Of a stretch of DNA of 48,335 nucleotides, positions 135 through 10,734 are shown in pieces. The notes beneath the pieces were generated by a model. It made no database searches. It saw only the letters and a program-made list of their open reading frames with translations, and had not been told where the DNA came from. Origin of the DNA: Candidatus Rokuibacteriota bacterium. GTDB lineage: Bacteria > Methylomirabilota > Methylomirabilia > Rokubacteriales > CSP1-6. The position numbers and the translations under genes are program-made. Each line of letters begins with the position of its first letter. The stretch's first letter is position 1. The stretch spans positions 1-48,335 of the forward strand of contig JACPIQ010000136.1 in NCBI GenBank assembly GCA_016188005.1, given 5' to 3'.

Positions 135-1478
135 CTAGCCGACGCCGTACTGCTCGATGCGGCGATAGAGGGTGCGCCGGGAGATCCCGAGCGCTCGGGC
201 GGCCTGGTCCTTGTCCCCGCCGTGGTGGCGAAGGACGCGGAGGATCAGATCTCGTTCGGCCGCCGCGAGGGTGGGTAGACCGCCTGTCGCCGCGGGCTCT
301 TCGGACCGGGAGCGCAGGACCGGGAGATCCTCGAGCGTGATCTCTTCCCGGGCGCCGAGGGCATAGGCGCGATGCAGGAGGTTCTCCAGCTCCCTCACGT
401 TGCCGGGGAAGTCATACGCCATGAGGGCCTCCATCGCCTCCGGCGCGACCCCGCTCACCCGCCGGCCCAGCTTCTGGTTGAGCTGGCGGAGGAAATGGGT
501 CACCAGGGGCAAGATGTCGGCCCGACGCTCTCGCAGGGGCGTGACCAGGATGCGCACCACGTTGAGCCGGTAGAAGAGGTCCTGGCGGAGGGCGCCGGCC
601 CGGACGGCCTCCTCCACGTTGCGGTTGGTGGCGGCGATGACGCGCACCTCCACCTTGAAGGTCTTGACGGCGCCGACGGGGCGCACGTCCTTGTCCTGGA
701 GCACGCGCAGGAGCTTGACCTGCAGCGCCGCGGGCAGCTCGGCCACCTCGTCGAGGAAGATCGTGCCGCCGTGGGCGGAGCGGATGAGGCCGAGGGCATC
801 TGCCACCGCCCCCGAGAAGGCGCCGCGCGCGTGACCGAAGAACTCCGACTCCATCAGCTCCGCGGGAATGGCGCCGCAGTTGACCGGGATGAACGGGGCC
901 CGGCTGCGGGGCGACCGGTGGTGGATCGCGGCCGCCACGAGCTCCTTGCCGGTGCCGCTCTCGCCCTCGATCAGCACCGGGGAGTCGCTGCTCGCCACCC
1001 GGTCGATGAGATCCCGGAGCTGCTTCGTGGCGTCCGACACCCCGACCAGCTCCATGGCACCCAGCTGGTCCCCCACCCGGGCGCGCAGCGCATGCACCTC
1101 CTGCCTGAGCAGCCGCCGCTCCGTCAACCCGCCCATGAGGTGGCGGAGCACGTCCAGATTCAAGGGCTTCTCGAGGTAGTCACAGGCCCCCGCCTTCAGG
1201 GCCTGGACGGCCGTCTCCACCGTGGGACGGCCCGTCATCATGACCACGTCGACGTCGAGGTCCCGCTGCTTGATCTCCCGGAGGAGGTCGATCCCGCTCA
1301 TGCCCGGCATCATGATGTCGAGGAGTACCACGTCCACGAGGCTCCGGCCGAGCGCCTCCAGCGCCTCCTCGGCGCTGCCGGCAGTGGAGGCCTCGTACTC
1401 CCACGAGGCGAGGACCTCGGCGAGCAGCTCCCGCAGCACCTTCTCGTCGTCCACCACGAGGACACGCGGTCTGTCCAT
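135..1478 (-). CDS. NtrC-family sigma54-dependent response regulator
   Basis: A 447-residue two-component regulator that would activate RNA polymerase carrying sigma54. Three domains are visible in order. The receiver domain (about 1-120) has the acidic pair D10/D11, phospho-acceptor D54 and K104 in YLEKP. The AAA+ domain (about 145-380) has Walker A GESGTGKE at 172-179, the sigma54-contact loop reading GAFSGA (219-224, consensus GAFTGA) and Walker B with FLDE near 241-244. A Fis-type helix-turn-helix ends the protein (AARALGISRRTLYRR). The length is normal for NtrC/AtoC proteins. The Thr-to-Ser change in the contact loop is conservative. No histidine kinase lies beside it, although one could lie past position 1. 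It has its own promoter and a start only 9 nt after the -10 box, so it is transcribed apart from the genes at 1543-10219 even though it follows them. Its target is unknown. Confidence 0.93.
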   Translation of the reverse strand: MDRPRVLVVDDEKVLRELLAEVLASWEYEASTAGSAEEALEALGRSLVDVVLLDIMMPGMSGIDLLREIKQRDLDVDVVMMTGRPTVETAVQALKAGACDYLEKPLNLDVLRHLMGGLTERRLLRQEVHALRARVGDQLGAMELVGVSDATKQLRDLIDRVASSDSPVLIEGESGTGKELVAAAIHHRSPRSRAPFIPVNCGAIPAELMESEFFGHARGAFSGAVADALGLIRSAHGGTIFLDEVAELPAALQVKLLRVLQDKDVRPVGAVKTFKVEVRVIAATNRNVEEAVRAGALRQDLFYRLNVVRILVTPLRERRADILPLVTHFLRQLNQKLGRRVSGVAPEAMEALMAYDFPGNVRELENLLHRAYALGAREEITLEDLPVLRSRSEEPAATGGLPTLAAAERDLILRVLRHHGGDKDQAARALGISRRTLYRRIEQYGVG

Positions 1479-1542: not shown

Positions 1543-3609
1543 CTACAGCTTCCGCTCCATGACCACGCAGTCGACACCCGGGCCGGCGTAGTCGGGGACC
1601 AGGGGCAGCGTCCCGGACCACGCGGCGCCCTCCTCGCGAAAATGGAAGCCCATCTGACGATGGAAGGCCAGCGACCCCTCGTTGTGAGGCACGGTGATGG
1701 CCACCACCTTGACGCATCCGCGGCTGCGCACCAGGTCGAAGAAGTGCTCGTACAGCGCCCGCCCGATCCCCCGCCCCCTGAAGGCCGGGGCGGTGCCCAC
1801 GAGGTGGACGTACGCCTCCTCGGGCCGCCCCTGGGAGATGAACCCGACCAGGAAGCCGGCCACCTCCCCGGCCTCCTCGCAGACGAAGCAGGTCTGCGGG
1901 AAGTGCTCGAGGTAGAGGGGATGGAGGAGATAGCGGACCTGATCGTTCCACCAGGTGTCCACGACCCTGCAGAGGTGGAGGAAGTCGAGCCGGGTCATGG
2001 GGCGGATCATCCGCTGGACGGGAGCACTCATGAGCTGCCTCCTGACCTCCTCGAGCACCCGTGCGACAGGGCCACGCACCACGAGGGCCGCCCAGGGGTC
2101 GAGACGGGTCTCGGTCCGGTTGAGGATGACGACAGGCATGCCTCGTTCCCGGGTCATCTCGGGGAGGTTCGAAGCCGGCGCCACCTGCAGCGACGTCCCG
2201 AGGACGAGCATGAGGTCCGCGCTCCGGGACCACCAGGCGGCCAGCGCCAGCCGGCTCGCGTCCAGCGCCTCTCCGAAGCTCACGGAGTCCACCTTGAGCG
2301 CTCCCCCGCAGCGGGGGCAGGTGGGGGGCCTTCCGCTTCCTTGCGGGGGCACGGACGCCGACGGCAGGCGCGCCTCGCAACCGAGACACACGGCCGCACG
2401 TGCATTGCCGTGCAGCTCGACCACGCGCTCCGCCGGAAGGCCCGCGGCCTGGTGCAGGCCGTCCACGTTCTGCGTGATGACCCCCAGCAGCTTGCCCTCG
2501 CGCTCGAGCTCGACGAGCATCGCGTGGCCGGCATTGGGCGCCGCCCGCTCCAGCGCGCGGCTGAAGCGCCAGTGGAGCCGCCAGTGAAGGCGCCGCGAGG
2601 AGGCCGACTCCAGGAAGCGAGCATGGGTCAGCGCCTCGGCATTGGCGTCGTACCAGAAGCCGGTCTGGCTCCGATAGTCCGGGAGTCCGGACTCCGTGCT
2701 CATGCCCGCCCCCGACAGCACGACGATGCTCGAGGAGCGGCGGATGAGCCGGACGAGGTCGGCGATCTCTGCCTCGGGCAATGGCCCGGCCGGTGCGACC
2801 GCCTCGATCTCTCCCGGCAGCGTCGCCTCCGAGAGGGGGCGCGGGCGAATCCCCAGGGCGGCCGAGGCCGAGGGGCTCTTCGCCGCGACGAGCAGGCCCA
2901 GCACCAGGACGTGGGCCATGGCGGTGACGGGGTATAGCCCCAGGGGCGCGAGGGCCCAGACAAGGCCCACCCACCCGAGCACACCAAGCCCTGACATCCC
3001 GGCCGCGAGGGCGAGCGTCCGTCCGGTCAGCGGGAAGAACACGCCGGCCGTCCCCAGAGCCACGGGCAGCGCCGTGTAGGCGTAGCCGCCGATCCAGAGC
3101 AAGCCCTCGAGGCCCCCCAGGAGCATGGCGGTGCCGAGTCCGAAGGAGAGCCCCGCGAGGCCGACGCCGAGAGCCGCCCGGGACACGCACCAGAGCCCGA
3201 TGGCGGCCGCCACGGCGCCCGGCAGTGAGGCGAGGACGAAGGACGCGACCATATCCCTGAGCGCCGGGGTCGCCCAGCCCGCCGCCGGTCCTGCGAGCGC
3301 CGGAGGGATGATCGGCGCCAGCTGCCCGACGCCGAGGCGCCCGAACAGGAGTCCCGCGCCCCAGATCACCAGGACGAAGGGAACCCCGAGCACCGGTAGC
3401 TCCCGCCGCGCGAATGGGGGCAGGAGCCGACCGTGGAGCCAGGTCGCCAGGACGGCAGCCGGCAGCACGAGGAGGAAGGCCGGCGAGGAGGGCGGAAAGA
3501 ACGCCGCCCACGCGAGCCCCACCATGGCCGCGTTGTAGCCGAACAGCCCCTGGCCCAGCAGCCCCCGGTTCCAGCCCAGCCCCCGGGCCATGGCCGTGGC
3601 GACCAGCAA
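1543..3609 (-). CDS. Fusion protein: urea-transporter domain + Sir2 deacylase + GNAT acetyltransferase
   Basis: One uninterrupted frame of 688 residues joins three families. Residues 1-245 are hydrophobic and resemble bacterial urea transporters ([11 protein letters not shown] at 21-31). Residues about 280-526 are a sirtuin with [15 protein letters not shown] (300-314), TQNVDGLHQ (379-387), catalytic His400 in ELHG, zinc cysteines 408, 411, 431 and 434, and GTSLQVAP (471-478). It looks closest to class II (SIRT4-like). Residues 527-688 are a GNAT domain with the acetyl-CoA loop RGRGIG near 611-616. The start given is a TTG. However, transporter homology continues upstream in frame (LGGAGQVLYAASP) to a CTG at 3741 that overlaps the decarboxylase stop as CTGA, so the true start may be there. 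A sirtuin and an acetyltransferase carry out opposing protein-acylation reactions; joining both to a membrane channel is, to my knowledge, not described. It is the last gene of the minus-strand cluster. An assembly-caused fusion cannot be excluded. Confidence 0.85.
2029..2043 (-). promoter_or_regulatory. Perfect internal ribosome binding site before the GNAT domain
   Basis: Inside the fusion gene, AGGAGG (complement of 2038-2043) lies 6 nt before an in-frame ATG (2029-2031) at codon 527, exactly at the sirtuin-GNAT junction. This is an ideal start signal and would give a free 162-residue acetyltransferase as well as the full-length protein. Confidence 0.6.
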
Positions 3610-3737
3610 GCCCAGGAGAGCTCCGAGCGCCGCGGGGGGAGAAAAGAGAGTGAAGGCCAGGAGGAACCACGCCCCCGCCGTCGGGGAGGCGGCATAGAGG
3701 ACCTGGCCGGCCCCGCCGAGTGCCGCGCGGAGGAGGC

Positions 3738-5186
3738 TCAGCGCCGACCCCGGGCGTGCCCGTTCGCGTGGGCGGCGCCGTTGCCGTTGCCGTTCCCGTT
3801 CCGGCTGGCAGCCGCGCGACGCGGCGCGAGATGGACCGGCATCTCGTCCAGACGCACCAGGTCCTCGGTCCGCTCGCCCCTGCGGAGCACATGCGTCTCC
3901 CTCCCGGACACGACGACGACGGGAGGCCGCGGGTAGATGAACTGCATGGAGTTGGACACCGTGTAGGCGCCGGCATTGCGGAAGAGGAGCATGCTGCCCC
4001 GACTCACCGGCGGCAGCGACACATCCCGCCGCAGCACGTCGATCTGCATGCAGAGGGGGCCGACGATGTCCACACGCGCGGAGTCTCCCTCGGCCTCGCG
4101 CCCGGTGACCACGTCGTGCCTGAAGTAGTAGGCCGTGGGCAGGAGGTTCACGCCCCCGTCGACCACGACGAGCGTGCGCCCGTCGGGCGTCTTCTTGACC
4201 GCCACGACGCTCACCAGGAGGGAGACGGCGTCGTCCACGATGGAGCGCCCCGGCTCCAGGATGAGCAGCGGGCGGCGGGGCAGCCGCTTGACTCCGGCCT
4301 TGAGCGGCCCCGCGATGGCCTCGGCGTACTCGGCGTAGCTCGGGGTCGTCATCTCCCCGGGCAGGAGCTGGCTGAGGATGGTGTTCCGCGAGGCGTAGCC
4401 GCCGCCCAGGTCCAGGTACTCGATGTCACCGAGGCGCTGCGCCTCGACGGTCATGGCCAGATCCAGGAGCCCGGTGATGGCGCGCTTGTAGATCTCCACG
4501 TTGGCGAGATAGGTCCCGGCGTGCAGGTGGAAGCCCGCGAGCCGCAGGAGCTTCGAGCCGTGGATCCTGCGGCACACCTCCAGCGCCTGGCCCGACTCCA
4601 TGTTGAAGCCGAACTTGTCCCACGGCGGATCGTTGAGGCGCATGTTCACCCGGATCCCGATCTTGACCGGACGCCTGAGCTGCCGCGAGACCTCCTCGAG
4701 GTCGGCCAGCTCCTCGAGGTTGTCCACGTTGACCCGGACGCCCAGCCGGGTCGCCTCGAGGAGGTGATCGAAGGGCTTGTAAGGGCCGTTGTAGACGATC
4801 TGGGACCCGGGCATGCCCAGCGCCCGGGCACGCTCCAGCTCGAACCCGGAGACCACCTCGGCCCATGCTCCTTCCTGGTGGAGGGTGGCGCAGATCCCGG
4901 ACACGTAGTTGGTCTTGTACGAGTAGGCCACCACCGTCTCGGGATAGCGGGAGCGGAAGGCCGAGAGGAACCCGCGCAGGTTCTTCCGGAGCGTGGCCTC
5001 GGAGACGACGTAGAGCGGGGAGCCGTACTTGCTCTTGAGGCTCTGGGCGCTCACGCCGTCCACCGCCTCACCGACCGCGATGGGAGGGGCGCCCGGACCG
5101 CCGCCGCCCCACTGCTTAGTGAGCGAGCCCAGCTCGCGCCGCATGATCAGAGGCCGCTCGTAGAGTTCCCGCGTGGCTGGTGTCAT
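3738..5186 (-). CDS. Fold-type III PLP-dependent decarboxylase (LysA/ornithine decarboxylase-like)
   Basis: A 482-residue alanine-racemase-fold decarboxylase that would remove the alpha-carboxyl of a basic or diamino acid. Visible signatures are the PLP lysine K91 in YSYKTN, H222 in HLHAGTY, the glycine-rich phosphate loop GGGYA (261-265), EPGRS (311-315) and the C-x3-D motif in GPLCMQID (C379, D383). The barrel and C-terminal sheet are complete. The last about 20 residues are an Asn-Gly/Ala-His-rich tail (NGNGNGNG) not typical of the family. The ATG has AGGAG about 9 nt upstream and overlaps the preceding ATP-grasp gene by 71 nt; a second ATG at codon 15 is possible. The substrate cannot be read from sequence. 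Its place between ATP-grasp genes and the transporter-sirtuin fusion argues against ordinary lysine biosynthesis and for a dedicated amine-forming step. Confidence 0.85.
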   Translation of the reverse strand: MTPATRELYERPLIMRRELGSLTKQWGGGGPGAPPIAVGEAVDGVSAQSLKSKYGSPLYVVSEATLRKNLRGFLSAFRSRYPETVVAYSYKTNYVSGICATLHQEGAWAEVVSGFELERARALGMPGSQIVYNGPYKPFDHLLEATRLGVRVNVDNLEELADLEEVSRQLRRPVKIGIRVNMRLNDPPWDKFGFNMESGQALEVCRRIHGSKLLRLAGFHLHAGTYLANVEIYKRAITGLLDLAMTVEAQRLGDIEYLDLGGGYASRNTILSQLLPGEMTTPSYAEYAEAIAGPLKAGVKRLPRRPLLILEPGRSIVDDAVSLLVSVVAVKKTPDGRTLVVVDGGVNLLPTAYYFRHDVVTGREAEGDSARVDIVGPLCMQIDVLRRDVSLPPVSRGSMLLFRNAGAYTVSNSMQFIYPRPPVVVVSGRETHVLRRGERTEDLVRLDEMPVHLAPRRAAASRNGNGNGNGAAHANGHARGRR

Positions 5187-6225
5187 GGGAGAAGGCTCCT
5201 TCGGTGGCCAGCTGGCCTAGCGTGGTGATCGGCATCGCGACGTCCATCGCCACCCGGGACAGGAACAGGCCGTCCCGGTACGTCGCGGGCAGTACGGGGG
5301 CTGCCCCCAGGCAGAGCCCCACGTACTGGCGGGCCAGCGGCCGCCCGGCAGCGGCGGCCAGGGAGATCCAGGAAGGAAAGCCGGGCGTCACGCCCGTGAA
5401 CCAGAGGGCGCCGGCCTCGTCCCGGATCAGGTGAAGCTCACCGGGGCCGGTCCAGCGCGCGACATCCAGGATGCGGCGGGCGGCAGCCAGGACCGCGGGG
5501 TCCGCGGTGGTCACGGCGGACCAGAGGGCTCCGTTGCTGCCGCGCTGGAGCGGCAACGCCGCGGCCAGCCCCAGCACCCGCCCGTGGCCGCCGCAGAGGA
5601 CGGCGACGCTGATCTCCGTCCCCAGCGTGGGCTCGTGGGCGCGCGTCGCCATGCCCCAGGGGCGCGCCATCGCCTGGACCAGGGCCGGGATCTCGGCGAG
5701 CGTGGCGGCCGAGGCCAGGCGCCCGTCGGTGGTCCGCAGGAGCAGGGGCCACGCGCACGGTCTGAGCGCCAGCTTGCCCAGGCTTGCGGGATCGAGGCCC
5801 GAGCCGCGCGGCAGCCGCACCCCGGCAACCCTCGACACCCCGAGAAAGGGCAAGCCTGCAGCCTGACGGGGCGACGGGAGCAGGTGGCGGACGCCGGCCC
5901 GGGCGAGGGCCTCGCGGCGAGGCGCCAGCGCCACCACGTCTCCGGGCGAGCCCGGCAGCAGGACGAAGCGCCGACCCCGGGCCAGCTCGCTGACCGCCGC
6001 GACGAAGGCCTCCGGCTCGCGGCGGGGGGAGGGTACCACGACCACCTCGTCGGCAGCGGGGACGGCCTGGAGGCCGTCCGAGAACGCGCTCTCCGCCAGC
6101 GCGACCACGCGAAGGCCGGCGGCGCCGGGCCCCCTCTTGAGCGACTGGGCCGCGGCCAGCCCGGCGCTGGGCTCGTCCGCCCCGGTGATGCCAGTGATCG
6201 CCACCCAGGTCGGCTTCGCGGTCAT
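5116..6225 (-). CDS. Degenerate ATP-grasp-like protein (paralogue of next gene upstream)
   Basis: A 369-residue protein clearly related to the ATP-grasp protein encoded at 6230-7303. The N-termini match (VAITGITGADEP versus VAITGLAASDNP) and the C-terminal block WTGPGELHLIRDEAG matches WVGPAELEMIRDPAS. The catalytic signature EINPR of the paralogue is replaced here by GVTPG (278-282), and the ATP-binding lysines are missing or changed (LLLRTT where the paralogue has FFLKGS). The metal- and ATP-binding Glu, Asn and Arg are therefore absent. It probably no longer makes acyl-phosphates and may serve as a partner or regulatory subunit of the active paralogue. The start at 6225 is supported by GGGGGAGGTGA five nt upstream. 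It lies 4 nt after the stop of the upstream gene. Confidence 0.8.
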   Translation of the reverse strand: MTAKPTWVAITGITGADEPSAGLAAAQSLKRGPGAAGLRVVALAESAFSDGLQAVPAADEVVVVPSPRREPEAFVAAVSELARGRRFVLLPGSPGDVVALAPRREALARAGVRHLLPSPRQAAGLPFLGVSRVAGVRLPRGSGLDPASLGKLALRPCAWPLLLRTTDGRLASAATLAEIPALVQAMARPWGMATRAHEPTLGTEISVAVLCGGHGRVLGLAAALPLQRGSNGALWSAVTTADPAVLAAARRILDVARWTGPGELHLIRDEAGALWFTGVTPGFPSWISLAAAAGRPLARQYVGLCLGAAPVLPATYRDGLFLSRVAMDVAMPITTLGQLATEGAFSHDTSHAGTLRAASDHAARAGLAH

Positions 6226-6229
6226 GGCC

Positions 6230-7303
6230 TCACCTCCCCCGCAGGACCACATGACGCGAGGATGTCAGCGCCTCCACCCGGTCGAAGGGATGGAAGGCAT
6301 CCTCCACCGACCGGACGAAGAGCTGGCCCGGGCGGACCTCGCGGAAGGGGCGGACCTCTCTCCCCATGGCCAGCTGCACCGCCGCCCATGGCAGGTTCTG
6401 TCCCGCCGCCGCGGTGAGATAGGTCCAGGCGGGGAAGCGAGGATTGATCTCGATGAGGTAGAACCGGTTCGAGGCGGGATCCCGGATCATCTCCAGCTCG
6501 GCAGGACCCACCCAGTCGATGGACCGGAGCAGGTGGCCGGCGCGCTCCACGACCTCCGGCAGCCGCACGGTGACCCCGGCCCAGCCCTTGCCCCGGTCCG
6601 TGACTCCCAGCTTCCGCATGGGCACGGCCCCGACCAGCTCGCTCTTCCGGTTGAAGAGCACGGTGACGTTCAGCTCGTCGCCGATCACCCGCTCCTGCGC
6701 CAGGAGCGGGAATCCCCACTGGCCCACCAGCCGCTCGAACTCCGCATGCGCCTGCTCCGCCGTGCTGACGAGCCTGGCGTCGGCGAAGGACCCCTTGAGG
6801 AAGAACGGGAGCGCGAGGTCGCGGAGCGCCGCCGTCATGGCCGTCTGCGACAGGAGCGTGACCGTGCGCGGGGCGGCAAAGCCCGAAGCCTCGGCCAGCG
6901 GCGAGAGCACGGACTTGGCGCGACGGCGGATGGCTGCCGCGTCGGGCACGAGGGTGTGGATGCCGAGCCCCGCCAGCGAGCGGCGCGTCCCGGCGCAGAG
7001 CCCGACGTCGGGGTCCAGCGCAGGGATGAGCACGTCGATGGGCGTTTGCCGCCTGACGTCTGCCAGGGCCTGGACGAAGCTCCGGTCCCCGTAGGCCGGC
7101 GCCGGGATGAGGAAGACCTCGTCGATCAGGTCCGTCGCGTAGAGCCCGGTGAATCGGTGGTCGAACGCCAGCCCGACCAGGGTCTGGCGGGGCCCGCGCG
7201 CCTCCCTGAGGCAGCGGGCCACCGCCACCCCCGGCCCCGGATTGTCCGAGGCCGCGAGCCCCGTGATTGCAACGGTCGGGCTACGATTCGGAGAGGAGTC
7301 CAT
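6230..7303 (-). CDS. ATP-grasp family carboxylate-amine ligase
   Basis: A 357-residue ATP-grasp protein of the carbamoyl-phosphate-synthase-like type. The N-terminal preATP-grasp Rossmann-like domain begins VAITGLAASDN (11-21), followed by LIPALDPDVG, a lysine at 130, a second lysine in FFLKGS (K170), the adenine-contact strand LAQERVIGDELNV (201-213) and the catalytic signature LIEINPRFPAW (284-293). Family members join a carboxylate to an amine or amino acid through an acyl-phosphate. The ATG at 7303 was preferred over an upstream start because the fold begins immediately after it and AGGTG lies about 9 nt upstream. It overlaps the PqqD-like gene by 23 nt. Next to a PqqD-like protein and a decarboxylase, a peptide- or amide-forming role is likely, but the substrates are unknown. 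Confidence 0.88.
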   Translation of the reverse strand: MDSSPNRSPTVAITGLAASDNPGPGVAVARCLREARGPRQTLVGLAFDHRFTGLYATDLIDEVFLIPAPAYGDRSFVQALADVRRQTPIDVLIPALDPDVGLCAGTRRSLAGLGIHTLVPDAAAIRRRAKSVLSPLAEASGFAAPRTVTLLSQTAMTAALRDLALPFFLKGSFADARLVSTAEQAHAEFERLVGQWGFPLLAQERVIGDELNVTVLFNRKSELVGAVPMRKLGVTDRGKGWAGVTVRLPEVVERAGHLLRSIDWVGPAELEMIRDPASNRFYLIEINPRFPAWTYLTAAAGQNLPWAAVQLAMGREVRPFREVRPGQLFVRSVEDAFHPFDRVEALTSSRHVVLRGR

Positions 7304-7499
7304 GGATCCGCACCTGGGAGAGGAAGGCCAGCACGTCGGCGAGGGCCCGGGCTGGCGGGATCCCGTGGGATCTCGCCAGCCGCTGGGCAATGTCCTCGGG
7401 CGCTGTGCCCTGGCGGTAGAGGCGGTGGACGAGGGCGCCCGTGGCGTTCAGGGTGAACACGTCACCGCAGTCCTCCCTGAAGAGAAAGCGCGACTCCAT
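7281..7499 (-). CDS. PqqD-like small peptide-binding protein
   Basis: A 72-residue protein with the PqqD/RRE winged-helix pattern: an N-terminal strand pair, the FTLNATGALVHRL core (15-27), an amphipathic helix with EDIAQRLA, and the closing helix ADVLAFLSQV followed by GLL. PqqD-fold proteins bind a precursor peptide and present it to a modifying enzyme. Here no radical-SAM gene is present and the neighbours are ATP-grasp proteins. The ATG overlaps the stop of the TPR gene by one base (TGATG), so translation is coupled. No precursor-peptide gene is obvious nearby. Confidence 0.8.
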   Translation of the reverse strand: MESRFLFREDCGDVFTLNATGALVHRLYRQGTAPEDIAQRLARSHGIPPARALADVLAFLSQVRIHGLLSES

Positions 7500-10219
7500 C
7501 AGCGCGCCCCCGCCGTCTTCTTCGGCTCGGTGGCGCGGAGCCCGGCCAGGACCGGCGGATAGGCCGGATACATCTCCTGCGCGGTCAGGAAGATCTCCCG
7601 CGCGGCGGGCTGGTCGCCCTTCTTCGCGAGGCAGCTGGCCTTGCCCACCATGGAGGAGACCAGGTCGGGGTCGCGGTCCAGCGAAGCGTCGAAGCGCTCG
7701 ACGGCCTGCTCGCACTTGCCCGCCAGCACCGAGACCCAGCCGAGAATGGACTGCGCGTCCGTCAACACCGGGTAGCTGCCCGACTCCGGGAACACGACCC
7801 ACACCGTGCGGTGCTCCGCTCGGCGCTTGGCCTTGAGCGCGCGGTTGAGGCTCGCCTCGGCCTCGGAGGTCTTGCCGAGCTTGTAGAGAGCGTAGCCGTG
7901 GCCGAACCACGCATTGCTGTCGGCCGCGTCGTCCTTGGCGATCTCCTCGAAGAGCTTGCGCGCGGGCTCGAAGGCCTGCCATCTGACATAGCCCCAGGCC
8001 AGGTCGCTCCGGAGATCGCGGTAGTCCTTGCTGCCTGTCAGCTCCCGGAAGGGCTTGTCGTCCGCGTAGCCCGGGATGAGGGTGAGGGCGTAGCGGTAGG
8101 CTGCCTTGGCCTCCCCGGGGCGGTTGAGCTTCACGTAGGTCCAGCCGAGCATGCGATTCACCTCGGGGGAGGCCGGAGCGATTCGGTAGGCCGCCGTGAA
8201 GGCCGCCAGGGCCCCCTTGGCATCCCCGCTGGCGAGCAGCGCCCGGCCGTGGGCGGCCTGGTAGTCGAGCGAGCCGGGCACGAGCGCGGCTGCGCGCCCG
8301 AGCGCGGGAACTGCCCCACCGTGCTGGCCCAGGCCAGCCAGAGCCAGCCCCTGCCCGTACAGGACATCGGCGTCCTCGCCGGCCTTGACGAGCTCCTCGA
8401 ACTCGACGGCAGCCTCCTGGAGCTTGCCGCCGTAGTAGTGGCTCCAGGCATGTCCGCGGCGGGCCTCTCGCACGTACTCGGCCGGAAGCCCGGCGGTGCC
8501 GCTCACCTTCTTGAACAGCGCTGCCGACTCACCGAACTTGCCCTGGTTGTACGCGGCCCAGGCCCCATCCAGCTCGGGGGCGCGCACGCGCCTCAGCTCG
8601 GCGAACCCTCGCAGGGCGGCGGCGTAGCCGGGCGCGTCGGTCAGCGCCTCGGCGAAGAGCTTCTGGGCCTGCTCGGGCTGCTGGCGCCGGAGCGCGATCC
8701 AGCCGATGCCGACCTTCGCCTCGGCCGCCTCCAGCTTCGAGGCGGGCCGGATCTGCTTGAAGGCCTCCTCGGCGCGGTCGACCTTGCCGAGCGCCAGCTC
8801 GGACCAGCCGATGCCGCCGCGAACGAAAGGAAGCGCCGTGACCGGCAGATCTCCCGGGCTGACCAGGAGCGCCTCGAAGGCCTTGATGGCCTGCTCGTGC
8901 TTGCCGAGGTAGAAGAGTTCCCAGGCCCTGTCGTGGGGGCCGAAGCGCGCGGTGCGGAGGGCGGCGAAGCCGTTGGCAGCTGCGGCCAGGCCGGGGATGG
9001 TCCCGTTGGCCTGGACGAAGGCCTTCTCGGCCTTCTCCCACTCCTTGCTCCGCAGCGCGATGAATCCGAGCCCGGCCGTGGCCTCGGCGCCGTTCGGCAG
9101 CTGGCGCAGCGACTCCCGGAAGAGCTTGTCCGCCTCCTCCGCCTCGCCGAGCCCGAGGCGCGACCAGCCGAGACCGTTGAGCACCAGCGGCTTCATGGTC
9201 TCGGGCAGCCGGCCCGGCTCCTTGCGCAGCCGCTCGAAGGCGGCGACGGCCTCTCCGTGCTTGCCGCCGTAGTAGAGCGCCCAGGCATCGTCGAAGGCCT
9301 TGTAGCGCTTGCCCCTGAGCTCGCGCATCCCTTCCAGCGCCCGCCCGTATCCGGGCAAGGCCACCAGCGCGCGGCCGAAACCCGCCTCGGCCTCGTCGAG
9401 GCGGTCCCGCTTGAGGGCGACCCACGCGAGCCCCGCCTCGGCCTCGGCCGGGCGCATCGTCTTGAGCTGGGTGAAGACCTCCGCGGCCCTCGCGGAGTCG
9501 CCCGTCTGCAGGTAGCTCCAGGCGAGGAGGGACTGCACCTCCGGCCATGCGGGCTTGCCCTTCAGGGCCGCCACCAGGTGCGGAATCGCCCTGGCGGGCT
9601 CGCCCTTGGCCACGAAGAGATCACCCAGGCCCCGCTGGCCCTCGTGAGGCTTGTTGGTCCCCGACGGCGTCTGGGCCAGGTGCTCGCGGAATGCAGCCTC
9701 GGATTCCTTGAACTTGCCCTGGGCGAGATGGACGAACCCGAGCCCCAGGTACGGCTCGTCCCATTTCGACGACAGCCTGTTGAGAGCGGTGAACTGCGCG
9801 TGCGCGAGTCGCACCCATCCCTTCTTGAAATAGGTCCAGCCCAGGCCCTTCCGGGCCGAGGCCAGGTCTGGGTTGTTGATGGCCGTGACATCCGCGGCGA
9901 TGTCGAAGGTGATCATCTCGTCGGTCGTGGGACGCCGCTGGGCCGGAGCCTCGCGCAGGACGCTCTTGAAGCGGACCAGCGCCTCGTCGTAGCGCCCCTG
10001 GCCCCAGAGGCTCCACCCCATGAGGAGGCGGGCATCCATCGCGTCCGGCGACTTCGCGAGGATGGCGCCCAGCGCCTTCTCGGCCTCGGCGAACTTCTCC
10101 GCCTTGAAGAGCTTGACCGCCTCGTCCTGACTGGGCGCCGCCACGGCGCCGGCGAGCGCGCCGGCGAGCCCGACCAGAACGACGCACGCCACCACCGACA
10201 CCAGAGATCTCCTGCTCAT
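7499..10219 (-). CDS. Secreted multi-repeat TPR protein
   Basis: A 906-residue protein with a signal peptide (MSRRSLVSVVACVVLVGL, Ala-rich to about residue 30) followed almost entirely by tetratricopeptide repeats. The ATG at 10219 was chosen because a hydrophobic leader starts there and GGGAGGG lies about 8 nt upstream. Besides ordinary 34-residue TPRs, a larger unit of about 125 residues recurs three times; the units begin DAWALYYGGKHGEAVAAF, RAWELFYLGKHEQAIKAF and GAWAAYNQGKFGESAALF. It probably acts in the periplasm or at the envelope as a protein- or peptide-binding scaffold. It is the first gene of the cluster and overlaps the PqqD-like gene by one base. Confidence 0.88.
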   Translation of the reverse strand: MSRRSLVSVVACVVLVGLAGALAGAVAAPSQDEAVKLFKAEKFAEAEKALGAILAKSPDAMDARLLMGWSLWGQGRYDEALVRFKSVLREAPAQRRPTTDEMITFDIAADVTAINNPDLASARKGLGWTYFKKGWVRLAHAQFTALNRLSSKWDEPYLGLGFVHLAQGKFKESEAAFREHLAQTPSGTNKPHEGQRGLGDLFVAKGEPARAIPHLVAALKGKPAWPEVQSLLAWSYLQTGDSARAAEVFTQLKTMRPAEAEAGLAWVALKRDRLDEAEAGFGRALVALPGYGRALEGMRELRGKRYKAFDDAWALYYGGKHGEAVAAFERLRKEPGRLPETMKPLVLNGLGWSRLGLGEAEEADKLFRESLRQLPNGAEATAGLGFIALRSKEWEKAEKAFVQANGTIPGLAAAANGFAALRTARFGPHDRAWELFYLGKHEQAIKAFEALLVSPGDLPVTALPFVRGGIGWSELALGKVDRAEEAFKQIRPASKLEAAEAKVGIGWIALRRQQPEQAQKLFAEALTDAPGYAAALRGFAELRRVRAPELDGAWAAYNQGKFGESAALFKKVSGTAGLPAEYVREARRGHAWSHYYGGKLQEAAVEFEELVKAGEDADVLYGQGLALAGLGQHGGAVPALGRAAALVPGSLDYQAAHGRALLASGDAKGALAAFTAAYRIAPASPEVNRMLGWTYVKLNRPGEAKAAYRYALTLIPGYADDKPFRELTGSKDYRDLRSDLAWGYVRWQAFEPARKLFEEIAKDDAADSNAWFGHGYALYKLGKTSEAEASLNRALKAKRRAEHRTVWVVFPESGSYPVLTDAQSILGWVSVLAGKCEQAVERFDASLDRDPDLVSSMVGKASCLAKKGDQPAAREIFLTAQEMYPAYPPVLAGLRATEPKKTAGAR

Positions 10220-10734
10220 CGCGGTCCCTCCCCTCGCCCCGACCCGCCTGGTCGCGGTGACTGGCGGATGGAGCGGCCTCCCGGTGACCAGCAGCTGCGG
10301 CGCGGCGGCACCCTGTGACAGCGCCCGCACGCCGGATGTTGTGGCATGGGGGACTCAGGTGCACGGGCGATGCCACCGGCCGCATGAGTCAGAGCTCCCT
10401 GAAAATCACCGAGTTGGCTCTGGAGGGGACGGGAGGAGCCCCGGGGGAATGCCAGGTTGGCACGCCGCCTTGCCGGGCTGGCACATCCGCGGAGCCTGAA
10501 CCTTTCCCCGGTGCCGGACGCAGATGGCGGACATCGCGATCGGTCGGGCGGCGGCGCTGGACAAGACCGGGTGCAACGCCCGGGTCTCGAGAGGAATGGC
10601 CGCGGGGCCCGCGGGAGAGGCGGCCGGAGCGCGAGGGCGGGCGCCGAGGAACGAGTCTGACGGCTCCTTGACCGTCTCGCAGGTCCGGTGCTAGACTGCG
10701 CGAGTTTCACATCCAAGACAATGCGTTCACCCAG
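10220..10734. other. Divergent intergenic region with inverted TGGCA motifs
   Basis: This 515-bp region separates the minus-strand cluster from the plus-strand hydrolase/TRAP operon. No credible gene is seen. It contains a palindrome TGCCAGGTTGGCA (10450-10462) and a further TGGCAC at 10479-10484 on the same face (TGGCAC at 10458 and 10479, 21 nt apart), which could be an operator. A sigma70-like promoter for the plus-strand operon lies at 10668-10697. I did not find a convincing promoter for the minus-strand TPR gene. Confidence 0.4.
10668..10697 (+). promoter_or_regulatory. Sigma70-like promoter of the hydrolase/TRAP operon
   Basis: TTGACC (10668-10673), an 18-nt spacer and TAGACT (10692-10697). 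Predicted transcription would begin near 10704, about 30 nt before the TTG start of the first hydrolase-fold gene. Confidence 0.6.

Follow-up and report, generated by a model that had tools for sequence, protein, structure and literature searches.

A urea-transporter-type channel fused to a sirtuin and a GNAT acetyltransferase at the end of a conserved gene cluster in a Candidatus Rokuibacteriota genome

Bacterial sirtuins have mostly been described as stand-alone deacylases, among them the NAD-dependent protein deacylases CobB, Sir2Af1 and Sir2Tm. For urea transporters (UT) the described references are dvUT and UT-B (3k3f, 6qd5), and both termini of UT-B are cytoplasmic. Here we analysed a 48,335-nucleotide stretch (the window) of contig JACPIQ010000136.1, from assembly GCA_016188005.1 of a soil-type Candidatus Rokuibacteriota bacterium, in which one gene joins a UT-type membrane domain, a sirtuin (Sir2) and a GNAT acetyltransferase domain. 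Comparison with its relatives leaves very little doubt, as far as sequences can tell, that this gene is a genuine fusion kept up by selection, in which a UT-type channel is joined to a sirtuin and, in a single lineage, also to a YqjY-like GNAT, and that it forms the last core gene of a conserved cluster. The same comparison singles out a conserved four-gene cluster in several bacterial phyla, made of a PqqD-like protein, an ATP-grasp enzyme, an atypical pyridoxal phosphate (PLP) decarboxylase and UT-X, where X is the enzyme that accompanies the UT domain.

The minus strand between 1543 and 3741 is a single stop-free frame of 732 amino acids. Along it, Pfam identified a UT domain (PF03253, residues 5-286, 2.1e-25, 89.9 bits against a cut-off of 25, profile positions 2-289 of 292), then a SIR2 domain (PF02146, residues 344-522, 2.2e-40, profile positions 1-180 of 180) and then a GNAT domain (PF00583, residues 603-699, 8.5e-20). 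All three exceed the curated cut-offs, and an NCBIfam search agreed with these calls. In an AlphaFold2 model built from 42 aligned sequences (mean predicted local distance difference test, pLDDT, of 87.7) the three domains are folded and the linker around residues 300-320 is floppy; within the GNAT part pLDDT is mostly 70-96, except for residues 704-721. These results bear out the first-pass annotation, made from the bare sequence, which had read transporter, sirtuin and GNAT domains in one polypeptide. The first ATG, GTG or TTG codon of the frame is found at 3609, inside the UT domain, with none further upstream. The most likely start is the CTG at 3741, which overlaps the TGA of the decarboxylase gene as CTGA (3738-3741). 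At the homologous site the CTGA overlap is also present in G001, a genome of the same genus, and the overlap reads GTGA in G023, a genome of another genus. A standard gene caller would place the start of the fusion within the membrane domain.

Next, we compared each domain with described proteins. The sirtuin shares complete catalytic and zinc-binding motifs with CobB, Sir2Af1 and Sir2Tm, the last two being its nearest solved relatives both by sequence and by model; unlike all three, it sits fused behind a membrane channel. Its motifs comprise GAGMS at residue 344, TQNVD at 423-427, the catalytic His444 in ELHG and the zinc cysteines 452, 455, 475 and 478, and these key residues are invariant across five aligned homologues, save the Met of GAGMS. 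The domain thus combines a full SIR2 profile, GAG, TQN(I/V)D, HG and four zinc cysteines, the sequence hallmarks of a Sir2 deacylase, as had been claimed earlier under the name His400 for the same histidine, counted then from the TTG at 3609. The acetyl-CoA loop of the GNAT domain, previously noted as intact, reads RGRGIGRA (655-662) and matches the GNAT pattern (R/Q)xxGx(G/A). Its nearest solved relative is Bacillus subtilis YqjY (1mk4), with an alignment that spans 150 of 157 residues (113 bits, 9e-32). YqjY is a free 157-residue chain, whereas the window domain is fused behind the sirtuin. Closeness to Pat/AcuA-type GNATs was not seen among solved structures, where entries named for acyl-CoA synthetases reached only E 0.006. 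The UT domain belongs to the family of dvUT and UT-B over the full profile length, and the cytoplasmic termini of UT-B suit the attachment of a sirtuin. Unlike dvUT and UT-B, it has an altered pore motif in the second repeat, YTA for FNS (YNA in G023, FN in most of the M23 forms described below), and it scores 65.9 bits against the urea-transporter equivalog TIGR03441, whose cut-off is 274.6. Given this altered second-half motif, urea can only be guessed to be the solute.

Homologues were sought among 99 relatives. The homologue in G001 is 84% identical, gap-free and likewise 732 amino acids long, and the one in G023 is 51-52% identical over the full length; both frames are unbroken. The ratio of nonsynonymous to synonymous substitution rates between the window gene and that of G001 was 0.26 overall (UT 0.28, SIR2 0.21, GNAT 0.24), rising to 0.49 in the short first linker. 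It is this purifying selection on full-length homologues that argues for a selectively maintained fusion. A join of neighbouring genes by faulty assembly or annotation could be suspected, given that the genome is in 140 contigs and that the frame lacks a canonical start codon before residue 45. Against it stand the equal-length, gap-free homologue in a second genome and the 52% identical one in another genus, as well as the retention of the CTG start in G001 and of a GTG start in G023, so that there is next to no chance of such an artefact. The proposed search of other genomes for the same domain order thus speaks against an assembly join, which the independent full-length homologues rule out for practical purposes. 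Two further candidates were rejected. A fusion of the decarboxylase and UT frames was discarded, as the surrounding long frames (960-1170 amino acids) are not in the decarboxylase frame and reflect high G+C. A match in G019 that resembled a UT fusion is an MFS gene, a stop and a separate Sir2 gene, and not a UT.

Within the phylum of the window, UT was found in 6 of 95 genomes; it is part of UT-Sir2 or, within those same clusters, of a UT/TPR chimera. UT-Sir2 occurs as seven copies in these six genomes, namely that of the window, G001, G023, G004, G009 and G043; the second copy of the window's own genome lies in another cluster on contig 83, is 38% identical and has no GNAT. GNAT belongs to the fusion in the window, G001 and G023 alone and is absent from four of the seven copies, which reduces the core to UT-Sir2 and makes GNAT a late, optional addition. 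A solo GNAT gene in G040 (L042 10648-11229, minus strand) has a frame that opens with the last ~29 residues of a Sir2, 76% identical to G023, and is most likely the remnant of a broken Sir2-GNAT fusion. In a tree of Sir2 sequences the fused sirtuins separate from the stand-alone sirtuin of the window's genome. Strong relatives of the cluster ATP-grasp were confined to the same six genomes, in seven clusters, apart from a scrap at a contig edge in G002. In all these clusters UT-Sir2 is the last core member, in the order PqqD, ATP-grasp (one or two copies), PLP decarboxylase and UT-X, with TPR proteins in addition.

We then surveyed 388 genomes across phyla and found 15 outside the phylum of the window with a strong UT match. 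In 14 of these UT is fused to an M23 peptidase (PF03253 with PF01551), and in the remaining one, G224, a separate UT gene is followed by a separate Sir2 gene with an ATGA overlap. Decarboxylase, UT and Sir2 are also adjacent separate genes in G406, which belongs to the same phylum as G224. The UT-Sir2 fusion is therefore confined, in this sample, to the phylum of the window, and its homologues elsewhere are fused to M23 or separate. Fused and separate forms both exist, the separate ones in G224 and G406. The cluster ATP-grasp scored above 290 bits in 14 of the 15 genomes; in G189, the only exception, N masking covers the 8 kb of sequence that precede the UT gene on its upstream side. Eleven genomes display the order PqqD, ATP-grasp, decarboxylase and UT-M23 directly, and in G101 and G198 the UT-M23 gene is on another contig than the rest of the cluster. 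Like the window protein, the UT-M23 fusions have an N-terminal UT and a C-terminal hydrolase, in this case with the M23 HxH motif retained, and they occupy the same fourth position after PqqD, ATP-grasp and a decarboxylase with a CM[QN] motif. They differ in that M23 stands where the window protein has sirtuin and GNAT. The window cluster, compared with those of UT-M23, has two ATP-grasp copies and a large TPR protein upstream.

The decarboxylase is a paralogue specific to the cluster. The motif G[PN][LM]CM[QN]xD is present in all 27 cluster decarboxylases examined, as GPLCMQID in the window; the other LysA-like gene of the same genome, on contig 27, has GPCCESGD. The window enzyme stays below the threshold of the LysA equivalog TIGR01048 (248 against 297.9 bits), as does the contig-27 CESGD paralogue with 253. 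In LysA the Glu-Ser of the CES motif recognises diaminopimelate, and since the cluster decarboxylases are without this pair, diaminopimelate is probably not their substrate. In the decarboxylase tree, clusters of Sir2 type (fused and split) and of M23 type fall on opposite sides of one branch (support 71/96; 99% of bootstrap trees), a topology that fits one exchange of the partner enzyme between Sir2 and M23.

As sister clusters carry M23 or a separate Sir2 at position X, the core would be a channel with a swappable amide-cleaving enzyme. On this basis, we propose a tentative and doubtful mechanism. ATP-grasp would attach an amino acid or peptide by amide linkage, perhaps to a partner that the PqqD-like protein holds, and the decarboxylase lacking the Glu/Ser pair of LysA would decarboxylate a modified amino acid. 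The channel-tethered hydrolase would then cleave an amide, as an M23 peptidase in other phyla and here as an NAD-dependent sirtuin deacylase on the cytoplasmic side, while the UT domain would conduct a small uncharged product or by-product across the membrane. In the window lineage GNAT, placed beside the deacylase, may acetylate an amine of the product or of an intermediate, as a cap or for self-protection. Fusion, cluster and mechanism taken together are our best explanation, to which we give a probability of roughly 40%. The wider proposal is rather unlikely at present: an undescribed cross-phylum pathway whose channel bears an interchangeable amide-cleaving enzyme, with a sirtuin that serves biosynthesis or release and not regulation, and with an acetyltransferase added in one lineage. 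If it is true, the placement of a sirtuin on a solute channel, together with its exchange for a peptidase in sister clusters, would point to metabolism as its task and not to regulation.

Several observations weigh against this explanation. M23 peptidases normally act outside the cytoplasm, and hydropathy revealed no added transmembrane segment between UT and M23 (L143, L145, L155, L157), so that either M23 is cytoplasmic too or the topology differs. In the Sir2 tree the split Sir2s branch apart from the fused forms, and a single origin of the fused forms is weakly supported (72/69); Sir2 may consequently have been recruited more than once. The second ATP-grasp protein of the window (5116..6225) had no Pfam match, and sirtuins do not usually deacylate small molecules.

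Other functions can be read into the same domains. The first-pass annotation had suggested a link between urea or amide flux and acylation state, in which the opposing deacylase and acetyltransferase would tie passage through the channel to the lysine acylation of metabolic enzymes. All three domains are indeed present with intact motifs, and the antagonism of sirtuin and GNAT is established for acetyl-CoA synthetase, yet this reading fits the comparative results poorly and we regard it as improbable: GNAT accompanies only three of the seven UT-Sir2 copies and neither of the two split systems, its best relative is YqjY with the acyl-CoA-synthetase entries far behind, the UT domain falls far short of the urea-transporter equivalog and has an altered pore, M23 takes the place of the sirtuin in other phyla, and the gene co-occurs strictly with a cluster of biosynthetic appearance. 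A local switch has somewhat more in its favour, as the sirtuin is of the protein-deacylase type, is tethered and has its translation coupled to that of the pathway genes. Here Sir2, together with GNAT where present, would control lysine acylation of the cluster enzymes or of the UT domain itself, with NAD and acetyl-CoA governing a pathway held at the membrane. We still consider it rather unlikely, given that the M23 peptidase at the same place in other phyla fits catalytic cleavage better than control of acylation. A membrane-anchored, NAD-consuming Sir2 effector of anti-phage defence would be in line with the frequency of Sir2-like domains in defence systems. However, neither the fusion nor its neighbours matched a PADLOC model and the split Sir2 gave only weak matches (E 1e-6 or worse), the zinc cysteines and catalytic His of a deacylase are intact and the neighbouring genes are metabolic, which makes a defence role highly improbable.

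The architecture had been presumed new, and we found no description of UT-Sir2, of UT-M23 in this setting or of the PqqD, ATP-grasp, decarboxylase and UT-X cluster in open-licence full text, a body of literature outside which lie most subscription papers and all preprints; the cluster is thus apparently undescribed. The features of the window are collected in Table 1.

Table 1. Coordinates of the fusion gene, its domains and the neighbouring genes in the window
Feature	Position	Strand	Remarks
UT-Sir2-GNAT fusion gene	1543..3741	-	732 amino acids; CTG start overlaps TGA of upstream gene
UT (urea-transporter-like) membrane domain	2884..3729	-	residues 5-286; PF03253; genome match G000:C136:2884-3729
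Sirtuin domain	2176..2712	-	PF02146; NAD site, catalytic His444 and four zinc cysteines intact
GNAT acetyltransferase domain, YqjY-like	1546..2007	-	residues 579-732; PF00583; phmmer to 1mk4 YqjY 113 bits
Fold-III PLP decarboxylase, LysA-like, C-M-Q in place of C-E-S	3738..5186	-	
Second, diverged ATP-grasp protein	5116..6225	-	31-33% to first copy; A3 profile 163 bits
First ATP-grasp protein (carboxylate-amine ligase superfamily)	6230..7303	-	PF15632; NCBIfam CPS-like; A3 profile 516 bits
PqqD-like (RRE-type) small protein	7281..7499	-	PF05402 7.9e-11; same place conserved in other phyla
TPR protein with signal-like N-terminal segment, first cluster gene	7499..10330	-	Pfam TPR families; 51-87% in G023 and G001 clusters
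Sigma-54-type (NtrC-like) response regulator, downstream	135..1478	-	kept at the cluster in G001 and G023 (91% and 62%)

A conserved lysine that could serve as a carrier site was looked for in the PqqD-like proteins and not seen. Among open reading frames of at least 50 amino acids, those shared between clusters encode the core proteins, TPR proteins, regulators and a family of ~295 amino acids that is present in five loci. The contig-83 cluster adds a homogentisate-1,2-dioxygenase-like gene at its end (L004 4378-5763, minus strand; 53 bits against a cut-off of 511), and in G009 and G043 the clusters also include genes for an asparagine-synthetase-like protein and a UT/TPR chimera. In this chimera a TPR block is inserted between two UT halves; it lies near UT-Sir2 in G009 (L039 4975-6783, minus strand), is partial in G043, where it ends at the contig edge (L040 7902-8144, plus strand), and has a similar protein in another phylum (G406:C137:10562-11854, L245).

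Outside the phylum, the clusters (L204-L220) are often followed by TPR proteins and, in five loci, by members of the ~295-amino-acid family, which has no Pfam match (L211 12173-13057; L213 6583-7473). Finally, stand-alone UT genes in the phylum of G224 (L225, L230, L231, L235, L237 and L238) lie near a weakly related PLP decarboxylase that scores 46-88 bits against the cluster model and is perhaps part of a urea-making arginine decarboxylase pathway.

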